Below are positions 17,956 through 64,000 of a DNA stretch of 64,000 nt, in pieces (position 1 is the stretch's first letter; each line of letters starts with the position of its first letter). Below the pieces are notes generated by a model that was not told the origin of the DNA, ran no database searches, and saw nothing but the letters and a program-made list of their open reading frames with translations. The stretch comes from Sulfuricellaceae bacterium (GTDB lineage: Bacteria; Pseudomonadota; Gammaproteobacteria; Burkholderiales; Sulfuricellaceae), in contig JAUYFQ010000012.1 in NCBI GenBank assembly GCA_030690895.1, positions 1 to 64,000 of the forward strand. Direction: 5' to 3'. A program made the position numbers and the translations under genes.

Positions 17956-18709
17956 AAACAATATAACCCTGAAGCTTGGTTTCGATCACGCGCGGATTTT
18001 CCCCGTTGGCGATACCGGTGAGCCCGACCACGATCATTTCCCGGTATACCACTTGCTGGCCAATAATGAACTTGAGCTTGTTGGCGATGGGCAAAAAGAA
18101 CAGGTTGGCCGAGCCTACGCCATAAATGGTGGCCACGAAAGCCACCGCGATGCCCCCGCCCAGTTTTGACGGGTCGGACAAATTTTCCATCACATGAATC
18201 AAACCCATGACGGCGCCAATAATACCGATGGTCGGGGCGTAGCCGCCTGCACCCTCCCAGACTTTTGCCGCCAGGCGATGATGCTCTTCGTAAGTGCCGA
18301 TTTCCACTTCCAGGCTATCGCGTATCTTGTCTGGTTCGGCGCCATCAACCAGCATTTGCAAGCCCTTGCGTTGGAACGAATCAACCAGACCTTCAATCAG
18401 CGGCTCCAGCGCCAGCAAGCCGCCTTTCCGCGCCAACTGGCTCCAGCCGATGATTTCTGATATCAGTTGCGTTTGATTCAGCGGGGGTGGAACAAAAATC
18501 CACTTGATCAGACGAATGCCGGACAAAAAAACGGCTGGCGAACTCTGTAGCATGATGGCGCCAAGCGTGCCGCCGATCACGATCATGAAAGCCGTGAACT
18601 GAAGCAGGGAGCCAATATGCCCGCCCTCCAGTATCTGGCCGCCGACAATCGCCAGCAGCGCCAGCAGGATGCCGAAAATACTGGCTAAATCAACTCTGCC
18701 GCCGCGCAT
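17954..18709 (-). CDS. motC: Flagellar motor protein MotC (MotA-like stator subunit)
   Basis: The 251-residue membrane protein has four hydrophobic segments: near the start (LASIFGILLALLAIVGGQIL), LLQFTAFMIVIGGTLGAIML, YAPTIGIIGAVMGLIHVMEN and GIAVAFVATIYGVGSANLFF. The cytoplasmic loop between the second and third carries the torque-generating charged region. This is the MotA/TolQ/ExbB fold; the context next to motD and fliA makes it MotC. It is read after fliA in the same direction. Confidence 0.94.
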   Translation of the reverse strand: MRGGRVDLASIFGILLALLAIVGGQILEGGHIGSLLQFTAFMIVIGGTLGAIMLQSSPAVFLSGIRLIKWIFVPPPLNQTQLISEIIGWSQLARKGGLLALEPLIEGLVDSFQRKGLQMLVDGAEPDKIRDSLEVEIGTYEEHHRLAAKVWEGAGGYAPTIGIIGAVMGLIHVMENLSDPSKLGGGIAVAFVATIYGVGSANLFFLPIANKLKFIIGQQVVYREMIVVGLTGIANGENPRVIETKLQGYIV

Positions 18710-18734
18710 TAAAATAAAACTCGCGTAGCGAGCC

Positions 18735-18843
18735 TGCGTCCCCCTCTCCCACCGGGGGAGGGCTGGGGGAGGGGGAGACTGTCATACCCAAAAGGGCACA
18801 AGTGGTGATTCATCATTTGGAGTGACCTATTTTTCATGACAGT
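18735..18843. repeat. Composite repeat: G-rich palindrome plus ACTGTCAT element
   Basis: A palindrome (CCCCCTCTCCC then GGGGGAGGG) is followed by a 66-bp unit bounded by ACTGTCAT (18778-18785) and ATGACAGT (18836-18843). The unit contains ATACCC-AAAA-GGGCACAAG. The same composite is at 58800-58937. It ends exactly on the fliA stop codon. Confidence 0.85.
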
Positions 18844-24872: not shown

Positions 24873-26015
24873 TCAAACCGCCTCACGGACAAAATCCAGC
24901 TCCGGCGGCACCGGCAGGGATTGCGGCGCATCGGGCTGCTTTCCGCCATAGGTCCGGTACTGCCGCAACTGGTACACATAAGCCAGCACCTCGGCAACGG
25001 CAGTGTACAGCCTGGCCGGAATTTCCTGCCCCAGTTCGGCATGGCGAAACAGCGCCCGGGCCAGCGAAGGCGCTTCCAGCACTGGCACCTGGTTCTCTTC
25101 CCCCAACTCTCTTATTCTCAACGCCAGCAATCCGGCGCCTTTGGCCACGACCTGCGGCGCGCCCATTTTCTTTTCCTGATAGCGCAGCGCAACTGAATAA
25201 TGCGTCGGGTTGGTGACAATTACATCGGCCTTGGGCACCTCGGACATCATCCGGCGACGCGCCGCTTCACGCTGCAACTGGCGTATCCGAGCCTTCACAT
25301 GCGGATCACCCTCAGTTTCCCGAGATTCCTGCCGCACCTCCTCCTTGGTCATCTTGAGTTGTTTGGCATGATTCCAGAGCTGGTAAGGCACATCGATCGC
25401 GACAATCAGCAACATCGAAGCGGAAACCGCCATGAAGGTAAAGCCGACCAGACCGACCAGGTGCGACAAACCCGGTTCCAGTGGCTGAGAAGCCAGCGCG
25501 ATAATACCATCGACATCCTTCCACAACACCCAGAATGCCACGCCGCCGATCAAGCCGGCCTTGAACACGGCCTTGAACATCTCGACCACGCCGCCCCAGG
25601 AAATGACCCGCTTGACACCCTTGAGCGGATCCAGCCGGGAAAAATCCGGCACCAGCGCCTCGACGGAAAATAGCCAGCCGGAAATCAGGATGGAGGACGC
25701 CACCGTCACAATCAGCATCAAACCCATGAACGGCATGAAAGTCATCAGAATATCAAAGGAATGCTGGTACAAATGGGCAAACATCTGCGTGGTATCGAAC
25801 GCGTCCTGGCGGCTCAGGGTAAAAGCGTTACGCATCATGGCACGCAGATGATCCATCATGCCATCGCCCATGACCATCAACCCGCCACCAGCAGCCAGCA
25901 AGGCAGTAACCGTCGTCAGCTCGCGCGACCGGGCAACCTGGCCTTTTTCCCTGGCCTGCTCGATGCGCCGGCCTGACGCCGGTTCCGTCTTTTCAAGATC
26001 GCTGTCTTCGGCCAT
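24873..26015 (-). CDS. flhB: Flagellar export switch protein FlhB
   Basis: FlhB controls the change of export substrate from rod/hook to filament proteins. The 380-residue protein starts MAEDSDLEKTEPASGRRIEQ, has four membrane helices, and contains the autocleavage motif NPTH in VTNPTHYSVALRYQ. The cleaved C-terminal domain continues with GAGLLALRIRELGEENQVPV. It is the first recognisable flagellar gene of this leftward cluster. Upstream DNA is decayed accessory sequence, so its own promoter could not be identified. Confidence 0.96.
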   Translation of the reverse strand: MAEDSDLEKTEPASGRRIEQAREKGQVARSRELTTVTALLAAGGGLMVMGDGMMDHLRAMMRNAFTLSRQDAFDTTQMFAHLYQHSFDILMTFMPFMGLMLIVTVASSILISGWLFSVEALVPDFSRLDPLKGVKRVISWGGVVEMFKAVFKAGLIGGVAFWVLWKDVDGIIALASQPLEPGLSHLVGLVGFTFMAVSASMLLIVAIDVPYQLWNHAKQLKMTKEEVRQESRETEGDPHVKARIRQLQREAARRRMMSEVPKADVIVTNPTHYSVALRYQEKKMGAPQVVAKGAGLLALRIRELGEENQVPVLEAPSLARALFRHAELGQEIPARLYTAVAEVLAYVYQLRQYRTYGGKQPDAPQSLPVPPELDFVREAV

Positions 26016-42117: not shown

Positions 42118-42210
42118 CCCGTTTCCCCCTCCCCTGCCCTCCCCCGCTTGCGTACCCGGTAAAGCTGGGCATATAAGGAGAGGGGGACGAGGGCAACGCT
42201 TCGCGTTGTT
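42118..42210. repeat. CCCTCTCC-class repeat in the iscR 5' leader
   Basis: The reverse strand reads CAACGCGAAGCGTTGCCCTC then GTCCCCCTCTCC, a 19-base loop, and GGGGGAGGG. The first part is shared with the repeat at 58800. It lies between the isc promoter and iscR, so it would be in the untranslated leader of the isc mRNA. Confidence 0.75.
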
Positions 42211-42222
42211 TCTCTAATCGGC

Positions 42223-43056: not shown

Positions 43057-43782
43057 TCAACTATTATTGCGACCAGTCTTGGGACTGGCCAGTTTGAGAA
43101 TCCCCCGCAGAATACTTACCTCTTCCCGCTCCAGTTCCGTTCTCGAAAACAACCTTCTAAGCCGAGTCATCAAACGCTTGGGATGTTTCGGATTAAGAAA
43201 TTCGATTTCAATCAGAGTGCGTTCAAGGTGTTCGTAAAACTGCTCCAATTCGCTGGCAGTCGCGCCTTCAAATTCCCGGCCTGCTTTGCTGGCCGGAATG
43301 GCGCAGGTGCGCAGCTCGTAGGCCACGACCTGAACGGCTGCCGCCAGATTCAGGGAACTGTAATCAGGATTGACCGGGATGGTAATCAGCATCTGGCAGC
43401 GCTCCAGCTCTTCGTTCGACAATCCCGATGTCTCATGCCCGAACAACAGCACAACGGGCGCTTCATTTGCCCTTTCCAGAACGCGGGGAGCGGCCTCGCG
43501 CAAAGTCAGCATGGCATGAGAAAGCCCGCGATGACGCGCCGTCAGGCCCACCGTGAACACTGAATCATGGAGCGCCTCGTCCAGCGTAGTGCAGACTTCC
43601 GCCTGAACCAGCAAGTCGGACGCGCCCGCCGCCATTGCATCCGCCATTGCATCGGGAAAGCGCTTGGGATTCACTAGCGCCAAGCGCGACAAACCCATGG
43701 TTTTCATGGCTCGCGCTGCCGCGCCGATGTTGCCGGGGTGACTGGTATGGCTCAAGACCACACGGATGTTATCCAGGTTCAT
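43057..43782 (-). CDS. trmJ: tRNA (cytidine/uridine-32-2'-O)-methyltransferase TrmJ
   Basis: This is a SPOUT methyltransferase that modifies position 32 of the tRNA anticodon loop. The 241-residue protein starts [20 protein letters not shown] and has [20 protein letters not shown] and [20 protein letters not shown], the knotted SAM-binding motifs. The C-terminal helical extension ([20 protein letters not shown]) is TrmJ-like. It is divergent from suhB, with 45 bases between the starts. Confidence 0.94.
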
Positions 43783-58239: not shown

Positions 58240-58464
58240 TCAACCCGTCGTCCGCAATCTGACTCCGAAATCCGCAATGCCCAGCTTGAACAGCAGTTTC
58301 GCCGCCGCATCCAGTGTCTTGAATTCCCGCGTTTCCCGCTTGCCGGTTTCCAGCGGCTTGCCATCGGCCACGATCATGTAGCCCTGCGACATCACCGCGT
58401 AATGCACCTGCACCTGTTTGATGGCGCGTGCATCCAGCAGCAGTTTCATTTCCCGTTCGGTCAT
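58240..58464 (-). CDS. Unknown 74-residue partner of an XRE regulator
   Basis: The product starts MTEREMKLLLDARAIKQVQV and ends KLGIADFGVRLRTTG. I do not recognise the family. It is a compact, basic, alpha-beta-looking protein with no Cys and no membrane segment. Its ATG overlaps the stop of the upstream XRE gene (ATGA), so the two are translated together. That layout resembles small toxin-antitoxin or plasmid control pairs, but nothing in this protein proves it. Confidence 0.65.
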   Translation of the reverse strand: MTEREMKLLLDARAIKQVQVHYAVMSQGYMIVADGKPLETGKRETREFKTLDAAAKLLFKLGIADFGVRLRTTG

Positions 58465-58709
58465 GACGCCCCCTTCTCTTCCCGCCCCAGCACCCCGAAA
58501 AGATCGCCTTGATCCACCAGCACCAGCAAGTCGCCCGGCTTGACCTGGAGAAATTGGCATAGCTTGCCCAGCACTTCGCGGTCGAAGCTGCTGACCCGGT
58601 CGTTGTAATAACGATCCAGCGTGGCTCGGGCAACGCCGGTCGCCCGGCAGACATCGGAGACTTTGAGGCGCTTGGCGCCGAGAATGGTGGAAAGACGGCA
58701 GGAAATCAT
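58461..58709 (-). CDS. Small XRE-family HTH regulator
   Basis: The 82-residue protein is a Cro/CI-type helix-turn-helix: LGAKRLKVSDVCRATGVARA then TLDRYYNDRVSSFDREVLGK, followed by LCQFLQVKPGDLLVLVDQGD. It matches the YozG/YjzC-like XRE class, where the second helix reads VARATLDRYY. It is the first gene of a two-gene unit with the 74-residue protein and may repress this unit. Confidence 0.82.
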   Translation of the reverse strand: MISCRLSTILGAKRLKVSDVCRATGVARATLDRYYNDRVSSFDREVLGKLCQFLQVKPGDLLVLVDQGDLFGVLGREEKGAS

Positions 58710-58799
58710 TTATTCGCATAATTATTGATCGAGTGCGATCAATATATGCCATAAAAAAACAAATGTCGAGCGTTGTTGAAGACGGGGTTTATCGTTAAC

Positions 58800-58937
58800 G
58801 TAAAACAACGCGAAGCGTTGCCCTCGTCCCCCTCTCCCTTCGGGGGAGGGCTGGGGTGGGGGGAAACTGTCATGGCGATACCCATGGGCACAAGAGCGAT
58901 GTTTCATAATTTGGGGCGGCGTTTCGCCATGACAGTT
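58800..58937. repeat. Composite repeat, second copy of the 18735-18843 unit
   Basis: It starts ACGCGAAGCGTTGCCCTCGT, then CCCCCTCTCCC with GGGGGAGGG. A 73-bp element follows with perfect 14-bp ends AACTGTCATGGCGA and TCGCCATGACAGTT. Inside is ATACCC-AT-GGGCACAAG (58878-58894) and CATAATTTGG, as in the first copy. It sits between the XRE gene and the broken parE. Confidence 0.88.
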
Positions 58938-58956
58938 AAACGCGAAGGCGCGGGGA

Positions 58957-59277
58957 TTACGGGGCTTGTAGCAAACGCCGCTCACCTCGCCCGTTGCTGC
59001 CACACCGCCGGTTTGCGGGCGCTATGAAATTATGAAATACGGTCAGCACAACGATGTGCTGATTCCGCTCACGGAAATAAACACTGTAGGGGAATCGCCG
59101 TGTGACGGCCTTGCGCACGTCGCGGTACAAAATGGGGAATTGTTCGGGGTTACTGGCAATGAGATGAATCAAGCGTTCAATTTCAGCAAGGAACTCCAAT
59201 CCAAGACCGGCGCGTTCTTGCTCATACCAATCGCCGGCTTCGTCAAACTCGCGCCGCGCCTGCCGACCGGAAAACAA
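58957..59277 (-). pseudogene. ParE/RelE-type toxin gene frameshifted by an 8-bp tandem duplication
   Basis: The frame encodes ARREFDEAGDWYEQERAGLG, FPILYRDVRKAVTRRFPYSV and YFRERNQHIVVLTVFH, a ParE/RelE-fold toxin. An exact direct duplication TATGAAAT-TATGAAAT (59023-59038) then shifts the frame, so the end reads NFIAPANRRCGS instead of the family-like SARKPAVWQQRAR that one copy would give. The N-terminus is also doubtful: the open frame starts at a TTG (59277), and an ATG at 59287 reaches the same protein only if one base is removed. The toxin is probably inactive. Confidence 0.75.
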
Positions 59278-59311
59278 CCTGGCACATTATCGCTGCCAGC
59301 GTGCCTCAGCT

Positions 59312-59452
59312 TCAGTCTCGAGGCTTCCCATGGGATGGTGTCGCCCGGTGCGGCTGCCCTGCCTGGCGCAACAAAAATTCATTCAGCACAGCATCGCCAC
59401 AATCAAACCCCTCGCGCCGATGCTGGACATTCAACAGCTGGATGGCGACCAC
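59312..59452 (-). pseudogene. Truncated TacT-type GNAT toxin gene
   Basis: Directly after the tacA stop, the same frame reads VVAIQLLNVQHRREGFDCGD and AVLNEFLLRQAGQPHR before diverging and ending at 59312. This is the start of the GNAT acetyltransferase toxins that pair with DUF1778 antitoxins; the acetyl-CoA binding part is gone. The break is near 59336, where the sequence of the next toxin region begins. Confidence 0.7.
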
Positions 59453-59455
59453 CGC

Positions 59456-59722
59456 TCAACGACGCGCCATCAGTTCGCGCAGAGCGGGCTTCGGCTGGGG
59501 TGGATTTTCAATGGACGAGGTGAATGCCTCAAAATCCCGTTCGGTCATCAACAACGTGTTGCTTTCAGTCACAATACGGCGCGCGGCCTCATAGGCGTTT
59601 TGCAGCATGAAGCTGGAAACCGTCGTTCCCATCAATGCTGCGGCACGCTCGATCATCGCCTTCGCTTCGGTACTCGTGCGCAAATTGATCCGGGCTGATT
59701 CGCTGGCAAGGGTTCTGGACAT
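59456..59722 (-). CDS. DUF1778 antitoxin (TacA-like), orphaned
   Basis: The 88-residue product has a ribbon-helix-helix N-terminus (ARINLRTSTEAKAMIERAAA, LMGTTVSSFMLQNAYEAARR) and a toxin-binding C-terminal tail (ALRELMARR). AGGAGA precedes 59722. In TacAT systems the antitoxin covers a GNAT toxin that acetylates charged tRNA. Here the following toxin gene keeps only its first 35 or so codons, so the antitoxin stands alone. Confidence 0.88.
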   Translation of the reverse strand: MSRTLASESARINLRTSTEAKAMIERAAALMGTTVSSFMLQNAYEAARRIVTESNTLLMTERDFEAFTSSIENPPQPKPALRELMARR

Positions 59723-59873: not shown

Positions 59874-61919
59874 TCAGTCCGCCAGTGCTTTCAATAAAGC
59901 ATCCTTAGCATCCTGGTAGAACTCAATATCCAGCCGCGTCGCCATGTCATCAGACAAATCGAACAACTGGCGTCGGCACGACACTGGTAGCAGCAACGAT
60001 TTCGCACCCTTTTCCACGGCCATTTCGGCTAGGCTGACAGCGTTGTGAATCGGCTCGATGGTGCCACCAAGCGTAACCTCACCGACCACCACTAAGCCGC
60101 CGCGCACTGATTTTCGCAACAGTGCGCTGCACAGCGCGATCAGAGACGACACGCCAGTCTTCGCGCCGCTTTTGGCAGCATCGAACCCACGCAGCTGCAC
60201 AGAGAATTCGTGGGAACGCGGGTCACGGTCACCTACCAACTGCATGGCGCGGGCGTAGAGGTTTTGCTCGGCGCAGCGAATGGACTCCTGAAATGCTTGG
60301 GGCACTGGTTTATTGAGGACGCGTACGCCGCTACCGGGTCCTTCGGTGACTTCAAGGCGGAACAGGCCGGGGTGTTCATCTTGCCCTCCTGGAGAGAGCG
60401 CCCAGATTTGTCCGGCCTCAAGCGGTTCGTCGCCGATACCGCCCTGGCTTTGTAGCTCTGGGGTTGAGACGAACTTTTCTACCCCTTCGGCACCGAGCGT
60501 ATAGCTGAAGTGGGTGTTGCGGAATTCTGCTGCACCGATGCGTTTCTGTTGTTCCTTAACCCGGCGGCGTACTTCAAGAGCCAGACGCACTGCCCATTCC
60601 AGATCTTCGTCGCTGACTACCGCGTCCTGCCCCGGATAGATCAGCTTCAACAGCCCACTGATGGTTTTGTTAACGCCGTTGATGTCCCGCCCGGACAGCG
60701 CGCCGCCAAAGAACACACGGTTTTGCAGCACGGCCAGGCGGCTTTGGCTACGCAGTTGCGTGAAGCATTCAGAGAGAAAGTCGCTGACCAGGCCGAAGTG
60801 GTCGGTGAAAATCTCGGGCTTGAGCTTGGGCACGTCCCATCCGGGCAGGTAGCAATGGATGCGATCCATAAACGCCGTGTCATCGCGCATCTCAGGCGGT
60901 AGGGGTTGGAACAGATGGCCGATGCGTTGCTGGTGTTCCACATCCACCTCGAAGTTGCCAACCATGACAATGGAGCCATCAGCGCGAATGCTTTCCTTGC
61001 CGCGCGAGAACTCACCGGACTCCATGTAGCCCTTCATGATGTTTACGCCATCCTTCTGGTCGAAGGAAATACCTGAAACCTCGTCAAAGCACACCACGTC
61101 GTACTGGCACACCAACCCCCGCTGACCGTTGGCATTGTTGACGAACATGCGTGCTACTGTCGCCTTGCCACCGGAAACCAGATGGGCATAAGGCGAAACC
61201 TGCTGGAATAGATGCGACTTGCCAGTGCCACGCGGGCCGATCTCGACCATGTTGTAGTTGCGTTCGACGAATGGCACCATGCGCAGCAGCATGGCGTCCT
61301 TGCCCCGTTCCGTCAGTTGCGCAGGCTCGATGCCGATGGAGCGCAGCAGAAAATCCTTCCACTCGGCGGTAGAAAGCTTTGCCCGTGCCACGGCCATCTT
61401 GTCGAGCACATCACGCTGGGAAAGCTGGATCGCCCGCAGGCCATCAACACCGAAAGACCTGCCGTTTTTTTCCTGAGCGATGATCGCATCGTAACCCAGC
61501 GTCACCTCGGCATAAAAACCGCCGGTCAACATGCGCTGATGCTCGGTGACCAGTTCCGCCGAGATACGCACATCTCGCAGCTTCAGCGAAGGCAGCTCGG
61601 CGACGTAGGAATCAGTTTTCGCATCAAGTCGCGCCGAGATGATGTCAATGATGCGAACCTGTCCTTTCTCTTTCGCGATGGACTTGATCAGTTCCTCGTT
61701 GCCAGCCCGCACGGTGCGTTCGGAAAGCTGGCGCTGAACAATGGCCAGTCCTTCCTGAATCTCGGTTTCATCAGTGGTGGCGCAGTACCGGCCGAGCATG
61801 AATTCGACCACATAAGTGGGCACGGGAAACTGGCGCGAAAACTGGCGTACCAGGTCCTTGCGCACGATATAGCCATCGAAGGCATCCGCAGCCTTGCGGT
61901 CCAGGTCGTCAAGCTCCAT
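59874..61919 (-). CDS. brxL: BREX system Lon-related protein BrxL
   Basis: BrxL is the AAA+ protein of type 1 BREX phage defence. The product of about 681 residues starts MELDDLDRKAADAFDGYIVR. The Walker A is EIGPRGTGKSHLF and the Walker B region DVVCFDEVSGI. The C-terminal Lon-like domain lacks the usual catalytic residues: the Ser motif GPSAG of Lon is GAKTG here (AKSGAKTGVSSLI), and the Lys region GGLKEK is HNAVSLAEM. It therefore probably lacks Lon-type proteolysis. The start overlaps the pglZ stop by 11 bases, as expected for a BREX operon. Confidence 0.93.
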   Translation of the reverse strand: MELDDLDRKAADAFDGYIVRKDLVRQFSRQFPVPTYVVEFMLGRYCATTDETEIQEGLAIVQRQLSERTVRAGNEELIKSIAKEKGQVRIIDIISARLDAKTDSYVAELPSLKLRDVRISAELVTEHQRMLTGGFYAEVTLGYDAIIAQEKNGRSFGVDGLRAIQLSQRDVLDKMAVARAKLSTAEWKDFLLRSIGIEPAQLTERGKDAMLLRMVPFVERNYNMVEIGPRGTGKSHLFQQVSPYAHLVSGGKATVARMFVNNANGQRGLVCQYDVVCFDEVSGISFDQKDGVNIMKGYMESGEFSRGKESIRADGSIVMVGNFEVDVEHQQRIGHLFQPLPPEMRDDTAFMDRIHCYLPGWDVPKLKPEIFTDHFGLVSDFLSECFTQLRSQSRLAVLQNRVFFGGALSGRDINGVNKTISGLLKLIYPGQDAVVSDEDLEWAVRLALEVRRRVKEQQKRIGAAEFRNTHFSYTLGAEGVEKFVSTPELQSQGGIGDEPLEAGQIWALSPGGQDEHPGLFRLEVTEGPGSGVRVLNKPVPQAFQESIRCAEQNLYARAMQLVGDRDPRSHEFSVQLRGFDAAKSGAKTGVSSLIALCSALLRKSVRGGLVVVGEVTLGGTIEPIHNAVSLAEMAVEKGAKSLLLPVSCRRQLFDLSDDMATRLDIEFYQDAKDALLKALAD

Positions 61920-64000
61920 TCCAGCTCTCTCCAAAATTCAATCGTTCCTCGGCGACCTTCTGGCCGTCCCGGCGCAACACCATGGAAACCTGCTCGCCAA
62001 TCAGATCATCCACTTCCTCGAAAATTACACGTGCCTTGCCATCTTCTCCGATGCTTTCAGCCTCGCCGATAACTGTTCCCAGGCGCTCCAGACTCACAGT
62101 CAGTCCGACAGCATCATTAGCCATCACCGAGCAGATCGTCTTGCGCGTGTTCCAACTGACAGACCCCAGCCGGGGCAACCCCTCGGCAGCCCCTAGGCGC
62201 TGCACCCGCAAGAATGGCACCACTGACTCCTGTGGGCTCAGGCCTCCATGGTCATATTCCCTGCCATTGGAAAATGCTGAAATTCCCGGCGCCAACGCAA
62301 TGCGAACCGCAGGGTCAAAGCTCCATGGCAGCACCAGCCAATCCTGATCGGCCACCGCATCCTTCAACACGGCACAGCGCCCCCACTTGGTCTCCGTGAG
62401 CTTGACGGGCAATTCGGCCTTGGGCAGGCAGCCGGGCAAAAGCAACCAGCCGTGGTCGGTCACAACCCAGACCTCTTTCCATCCTGCTGCCAGCAAGCGG
62501 CGAATGGTACGTGCCAGGTCATCCAGATGACTGCCCACCGCGCGAGCCAGCCGCAAGCCCTTGTTGTGGCCGTCGCTGTCAATGTCGCCGGGGAATTCCG
62601 CCCAGCCTTTGCCATAAGCAAAACTTGGACTTTCCGTATCAACCAGGGCGTAAACCTCGGCCTCCATTGCCTTGCGCAACTTGTCTGCGGTATAGGCGCC
62701 CTTGGGCAGCTTGGGCTCAAAGCCACCGCCATTTCCGCCATCGGCGAGTTTGCAGGCTGGCGACACCCACACCTTGCCGCTGCTGGTGACTGAAGGCACG
62801 CTGGTAAAGCCTGGTTCAAGACTTGTGTTCAGGCCATCGGCGGCCAGTGCGGATTCCAGTTCGCGAGCCAGATCGAGGCGCAGGCCATCGACAAACAGCA
62901 CGACTGTGCCATCCGTCACCTCGGGCAAGTTCCAGTGGGGGTAGCCGTCGCGTTTGACCAGTGCCTGGAAGCTTTCCGCCTGCCTTTCGAGCCAGCGGCG
63001 ATACAGCGCCTCCAAAATGGCATAGATTGGTTTTTCCTGTTCTGCTTGCTGAGCTAGCACCATCGAGGCACGAGCGGCGGCATCGATGCGCCAGCCACTC
63101 TCCGCGTAGCGAAGTGCTGCCTCTGCTACCGTGCCCCCCGCCTGCGGTTGCTGAAATGCCCGCGCAATCTCCGCCAGATGAGCAAGCGCCAACGCGAGTG
63201 GCGCCCGGCCCATTTGCGCCCAAAGCGATTCGCGTCGTGCCGAGTGCTGTGTATCCAGTTTTAGTACCGCCTCGGCTACCGCCAATGGCTCCAGGCTTGC
63301 CGCCTGCAACAATGCGTCGGACAAGCGTTTTTCGTCAGCATCGTTCTCGCGCGGGTAGCGCCATGCGTCCTGAAAAAGGTCGGGCAGCGCGGTATTGCGG
63401 AACACCTCATAGGCATCGGGATAGCTCTGCCAGTGGGCGCAATACTTCTCCCACAGCAGGTAGCCTGCCTCTCCCGGCTGGCTGGCGAGAATCTTCTGCG
63501 CCACATCCAGCGGCCCCTTGCCAAGATCAACGCCAAAGCGAGTGCGCGTCGTCGTCACAAAGCTCGCCCATGCCTCGCCCTTTTCTTCCTGTATCGTCTC
63601 GGGCGCGGTCAACCAGCGCAGCACGGTCTCGTCCGGGGCCGGATTGAGCAGGTCGTTGAGGAAACGCTCGTCTATGGTTTGCTGACTCAAGGCCGGCAGA
63701 TTCTGGTTGAGTAATTTACCCATTGCCGCCTTGAGCGCCAGCAAGGTTTCCTGATTGCCAGAAACATTCAACCCCAGCCCTGCACGCTTGCTTTCGAGGA
63801 AGGCGCGCAATGTCCAGTCCTTGCCGTTATCCTGGCGCCAGAAGGCTCCTCGATATTGCAGTTCGGCGAGCGGCGCCAGTTGCGGGTCGTCCTTCAAACC
63901 ACGCAAATCGGTACGCAATTGTCCGTTGCCTACGCCGGGGAGATAAAGAATAGGTGTCACGTTAGCTTCGGTTGTTCCTGCCTGTCGATCCGCCACCATA
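61909..64000 (-). CDS. pglZ: BREX alkaline phosphatase-like protein PglZ, 5' end outside window
   Basis: The visible 696 residues match PglZ of BREX. They include VTPILYLPGVGNGQL and LAELQYRGAFWRQDNGKDWT, the metal-binding start VVLFVDGLRLDLAREL, the Asp-His segment WVVTDHGWLLLPG, and a C-terminal HGGLSPQESVVPFLRV. The open frame reaches the window edge, so the true start and about the first 100 residues of the family are missing. The protein is essential for BREX activity in known systems. It is followed by brxL; pglX, brxC and others should lie to the right. Confidence 0.93.
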   Translation of the reverse strand, partial: MVADRQAGTTEANVTPILYLPGVGNGQLRTDLRGLKDDPQLAPLAELQYRGAFWRQDNGKDWTLRAFLESKRAGLGLNVSGNQETLLALKAAMGKLLNQNLPALSQQTIDERFLNDLLNPAPDETVLRWLTAPETIQEEKGEAWASFVTTTRTRFGVDLGKGPLDVAQKILASQPGEAGYLLWEKYCAHWQSYPDAYEVFRNTALPDLFQDAWRYPRENDADEKRLSDALLQAASLEPLAVAEAVLKLDTQHSARRESLWAQMGRAPLALALAHLAEIARAFQQPQAGGTVAEAALRYAESGWRIDAAARASMVLAQQAEQEKPIYAILEALYRRWLERQAESFQALVKRDGYPHWNLPEVTDGTVVLFVDGLRLDLARELESALAADGLNTSLEPGFTSVPSVTSSGKVWVSPACKLADGGNGGGFEPKLPKGAYTADKLRKAMEAEVYALVDTESPSFAYGKGWAEFPGDIDSDGHNKGLRLARAVGSHLDDLARTIRRLLAAGWKEVWVVTDHGWLLLPGCLPKAELPVKLTETKWGRCAVLKDAVADQDWLVLPWSFDPAVRIALAPGISAFSNGREYDHGGLSPQESVVPFLRVQRLGAAEGLPRLGSVSWNTRKTICSVMANDAVGLTVSLERLGTVIGEAESIGEDGKARVIFEEVDDLIGEQVSMVLRRDGQKVAEERLNFGESWNGA

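Follow-up and report, generated by a model that had tools for sequence, protein, structure and literature searches.

The window, that is the whole 64-kb stretch of DNA that was analysed, harbors on its minus strand sequences related to two toxin-antitoxin (TA) modules, the features of which are listed in Table 1. Directly upstream of them lie the BREX genes brxL (PADLOC BrxL, 1007 bits) and pglZ (739 bits) at 59874-63999, likewise on the minus strand, and this BREX defence locus extends to the end of the window. The reading frames of brxL, pglZ and other long neighboring genes are open. At the opposite side, just past the former end of the toxin gene, a dispersed repeat was found which contains a G/C-rich palindrome-like stretch (CCCTCTCCCTTCGGGGGAGGG) and has further matches in the window at 18709-18843 and 42177-42211. 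Beyond it, two small overlapping minus-strand genes at 58240-58709 encode an HTH_26 regulator (58461-58709) and a protein of 70-odd residues that matches no Pfam family and whose frame ends at 58240; this couple may be a further small pair of regulatory or TA-like type.

Table 1. Features of the TA region and its downstream flank (window positions; an empty strand cell means that no strand applies).
Feature	Position	Strand	Description
Dispersed repeat, about 145 bp	58794..58938		40-odd full or partial matches in the genome
parE pseudogene	58957..59277	-	106-codon open frame with TTG as first codon; PF05016 at residues 5-82, followed by a frameshifted ending foreign to the family
Ancestral, family-type end of the toxin	58983..59022	-	In a frame other than that of the core
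Exact 8-bp tandem duplication	59023..59038		TATGAAAT twice (ATTTCATA twice on the coding strand)
Natural toxin start	59243..59287	-	ATG overlaps the antitoxin stop; 14 codons (MCQVVFRSAGAARV), then a stop
Antitoxin 3' remnant (PF09720/TIGR02574 type in relatives)	59287..59354	-	About 22 of 76 codons, one base missing at 59321/59322
5' remnant of a TacT-like GNAT toxin gene	59346..59452	-	About 35 of 164 codons; joins the antitoxin remnant at 59346-59354
TacA-like antitoxin, intact	59456..59722	-	PF08681; partner of the truncated tacT

The product of the toxin frame (P0001) matched ParE_toxin (PF05016) with 32.8 bits and thus above the curated cut-off of 23, although over residues 5-82 only. 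This match and the homologues described below confirm the ParE-type identity assigned in the original prediction. No internal stops were present in the toxin core of 76 codons. A scan of public genomes yielded 65 related loci, the best of which had a protein identity of 66-82% in the toxin core; the best relatives came mostly from Gallionellaceae and related bacteria. In one of these loci, L043, the match runs through PF05016 to its end (1-88 of 89). Intact loci mostly end in the motif H..R.P..W..R, as in the AVFHSARNPAVWQQRAR of L043, and among the 59 intact-looking loci its residues were conserved in 100% (H), 98% (R), 95% (P), 92% (W) and 95% (R) of cases. A complete PF05016 domain, running from the first strand to this C-terminal motif, cannot be read from the window frame, as start and end lie in other frames. 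A search of solved structures returned only a weak match to ParE2 (8c26), which is too remote for residue mapping.

Within the last quarter of the minus-strand open frame (59277-58957), two copies of TATGAAAT follow each other head to tail at 59023-59030 and 59031-59038, so that the exact tandem duplication reported earlier was found again. The duplication puts the last about 14 codons of the toxin out of frame. It had been suggested that the gene end is frameshifted in this way and that one copy would restore a family-like ending; comparison with homologues bore this out, as another minus-strand frame of the window reads FHSARKPAVWQQRAR followed by a stop, which resembles the ends of relatives such as L043. 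Homologues carrying the longer ending of the window, which would speak against a frameshift, were looked for, and the ending was present in none of the 62 loci (of 65 related) whose frames were read out. At first sight, long tblastn matches in L045 and L046, which extend to query residue 105, suggested a shared ending, but the frames of both loci terminate normally, in ...NPEAWKSRVK. In a DNA alignment of the window with seven close relatives (72-83% identical DNA), the second copy corresponded to a gap in all seven, each of which possesses a single copy and the family-type ending. Because the second copy is lacking at this exact site in every close relative aligned, the duplication is a real event, a derived insertion that arose in the lineage of the window or, less likely, in its assembly.

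The toxin gene is also disrupted at its start. In the relatives the antitoxin consists of 76 aa, matches both PF09720 and TIGR02574, and ends in RWQR followed by a stop that overlaps the toxin start (TAATG). In the window, an additional base at about 59268, absent in all seven aligned relatives, makes the frame of the natural ATG (59287) stop after 14 codons. The 106-codon frame of the ORF finder begins only at an internal TTG and would lack what is, in the ParE/RelE fold, the first strand. Of the antitoxin gene, the first about 54 of 76 codons are gone and the last about 22 are kept, a truncation that occurs in none of these relatives, and the base missing from this tail at 59321/59322 has been lost in none of the seven aligned relatives. 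Compared with a PF05016 plus PF09720/TIGR02574 pair, with which the window shares the toxin core and the relatives share operon order and stop/start overlap, the window copy is frameshifted at both toxin ends; the antitoxin gene that stands directly upstream in a type II TA pair is represented by the frameshifted remnant only. Elsewhere in the genome of this organism four other PF09720 antitoxin genes were detected, of which C90 and C169, at least, adjoin a ParE-type gene.

Upstream of the antitoxin remnant, the window resembles a TacAT (DUF1778-GNAT) module, of which it retains the intact upstream tacA and the start of tacT. The whole pair exists within the same genus, as tacT is complete (164 aa, GNAT) at L010 in genome G002. 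Because similarity to this tacA-tacT locus (87% identical DNA) ends at 59346, antitoxin similarity begins at 59354 and tacT is cut to about 35 codons, two neighboring TA modules have been fused and truncated here. Same-genus genomes searched by DNA contained no copy of the toxin-antitoxin stretch of the window, and, apart from the organism's own genome, a DNA search across 399 genomes of the order turned up only two clear matches. No relative of the toxin was found in the viral contigs that were searched.

The original prediction had offered a switch in which slippage takes the 8-mer from one copy to two and back, turning ParE off and on. While the duplication is exact and is placed where the frame matters, it comprises only two copies, and a repeat tract is absent from the site in the close relatives aligned. 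Exact 8-bp tandem pairs occurred twice in the 64-kb window, compared with a mean of 1.0 and a maximum of 4 in 40 trials under a first-order Markov null; by itself, the repeat is at chance level and unremarkable. The switch fails because contraction restores neither the toxin start, which was frameshifted independently of the repeat, nor the antitoxin, so that no working pair would result. We regard phase variation as extremely improbable, and a literature search for TA toxins switched by two-copy 8-bp repeats returned nothing relevant. Two exact 12-bp tandem duplications are located elsewhere in the window, at 25556-25579 and 43629-43652 (CGGCCTTGAACA and CCGCCATTGCAT); their length preserves the reading frame, and by chance they are expected less often than the 8-bp duplication.

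The draft genome consists of 186 contigs with a contamination estimate of 6.4%, and the duplication, perhaps together with the single-base indels, might be an error of the assembly. However, four independent lesions, the gene fusion included, lie within about 330 bp while long neighboring genes are open, and an exact 8-bp duplication outside a homopolymer is unusual as an assembly error. A general sequencing-error cause of the indels was rejected because the long neighbors brxL and pglZ are open. An assembly error is thus considered very unlikely as the general cause, although single sites may be affected.

A further alternative is that the 106-codon frame is expressed from its TTG and yields a shortened protein with a new ending that is still useful, as a weak toxin or a decoy. 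The core is open and little diverged: dN/dS between the window and L043 was 0.16 compared with 0.04-0.15 among the relatives, the underlying numbers being small, and five residues were unique to the window. The open core and these values speak against decay unless it is recent or the constraint was lost only lately, which they would fit. Against a useful protein stand the missing first strand and the missing, nearly invariant C-terminal motif, as well as an ending shared by none of the related loci inspected. Moreover, no well-placed ribosome-binding site was seen by inspection upstream of the TTG, and, though this weighs little, no promoter-like site was present on its strand upstream, up to 59900. 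Some product may be made from the TTG-started 106-aa frame; lacking both the first strand and the conserved C-terminal H..R.P..W..R, it would most likely be inactive. That it still serves the cell is scarcely credible.

Taken together, the locus is very likely a decayed type II TA remnant, with a ParE-type toxin and a PF09720/TIGR02574-type antitoxin, that is situated beside BREX genes, the 8-bp duplication being only one among the mutations that inactivated it. The earlier proposal of a recent inactivating mutation is thus supported but incomplete, since the seven-relative alignment reveals at least four lesions, three of which it had missed; inactivation can therefore not be attributed to the duplication in particular. 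The junction suggests that the 5' two thirds of the antitoxin gene were lost together with the 3' four fifths of the upstream tacT, in a deletion or recombination that joined the remaining parts. The remaining stretch would then have lost one base in the antitoxin tail, gained one base at the toxin start and acquired the 8-bp tandem duplication near the toxin end, the latter probably by replication slippage. Such small indels, the slippage-type duplication among them, would have inactivated the toxin at its start as well as at its end. An early toxin lesion is plausible, because a cell whose toxin was still active should not have survived the loss of the antitoxin. It is conceivable, though rather unlikely, that the duplication itself was selected as the mutation silencing a ParE left without its antitoxin; if true, the locus would be a snapshot of a cell surviving antitoxin loss.

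Inactivated TA toxins are on record, as cited in a review, in the form of a parE pseudogene of Caulobacter crescentus and a frameshifted YacB of Shigella flexneri (PMC7354431). Like the window gene, these are type II toxin genes inactivated by mutation; those cases keep an antitoxin, whereas in the window the antitoxin is mostly deleted too. Among the related loci, 6 of 65 were broken or incomplete as well, so that decay is no rarity among them. The parE loci L051, L054, L088 and L090 of other genomes also look frameshifted or truncated. The locus described here is an ordinary dead gene, one more inactivated TA toxin of a known sort. The main consequence concerns annotation, where it should be entered as the remnant of a TA system and not as a live or switchable ParE toxin; it also provides a clear small example of the stepwise decay of two adjacent TA modules next to a BREX defence locus.
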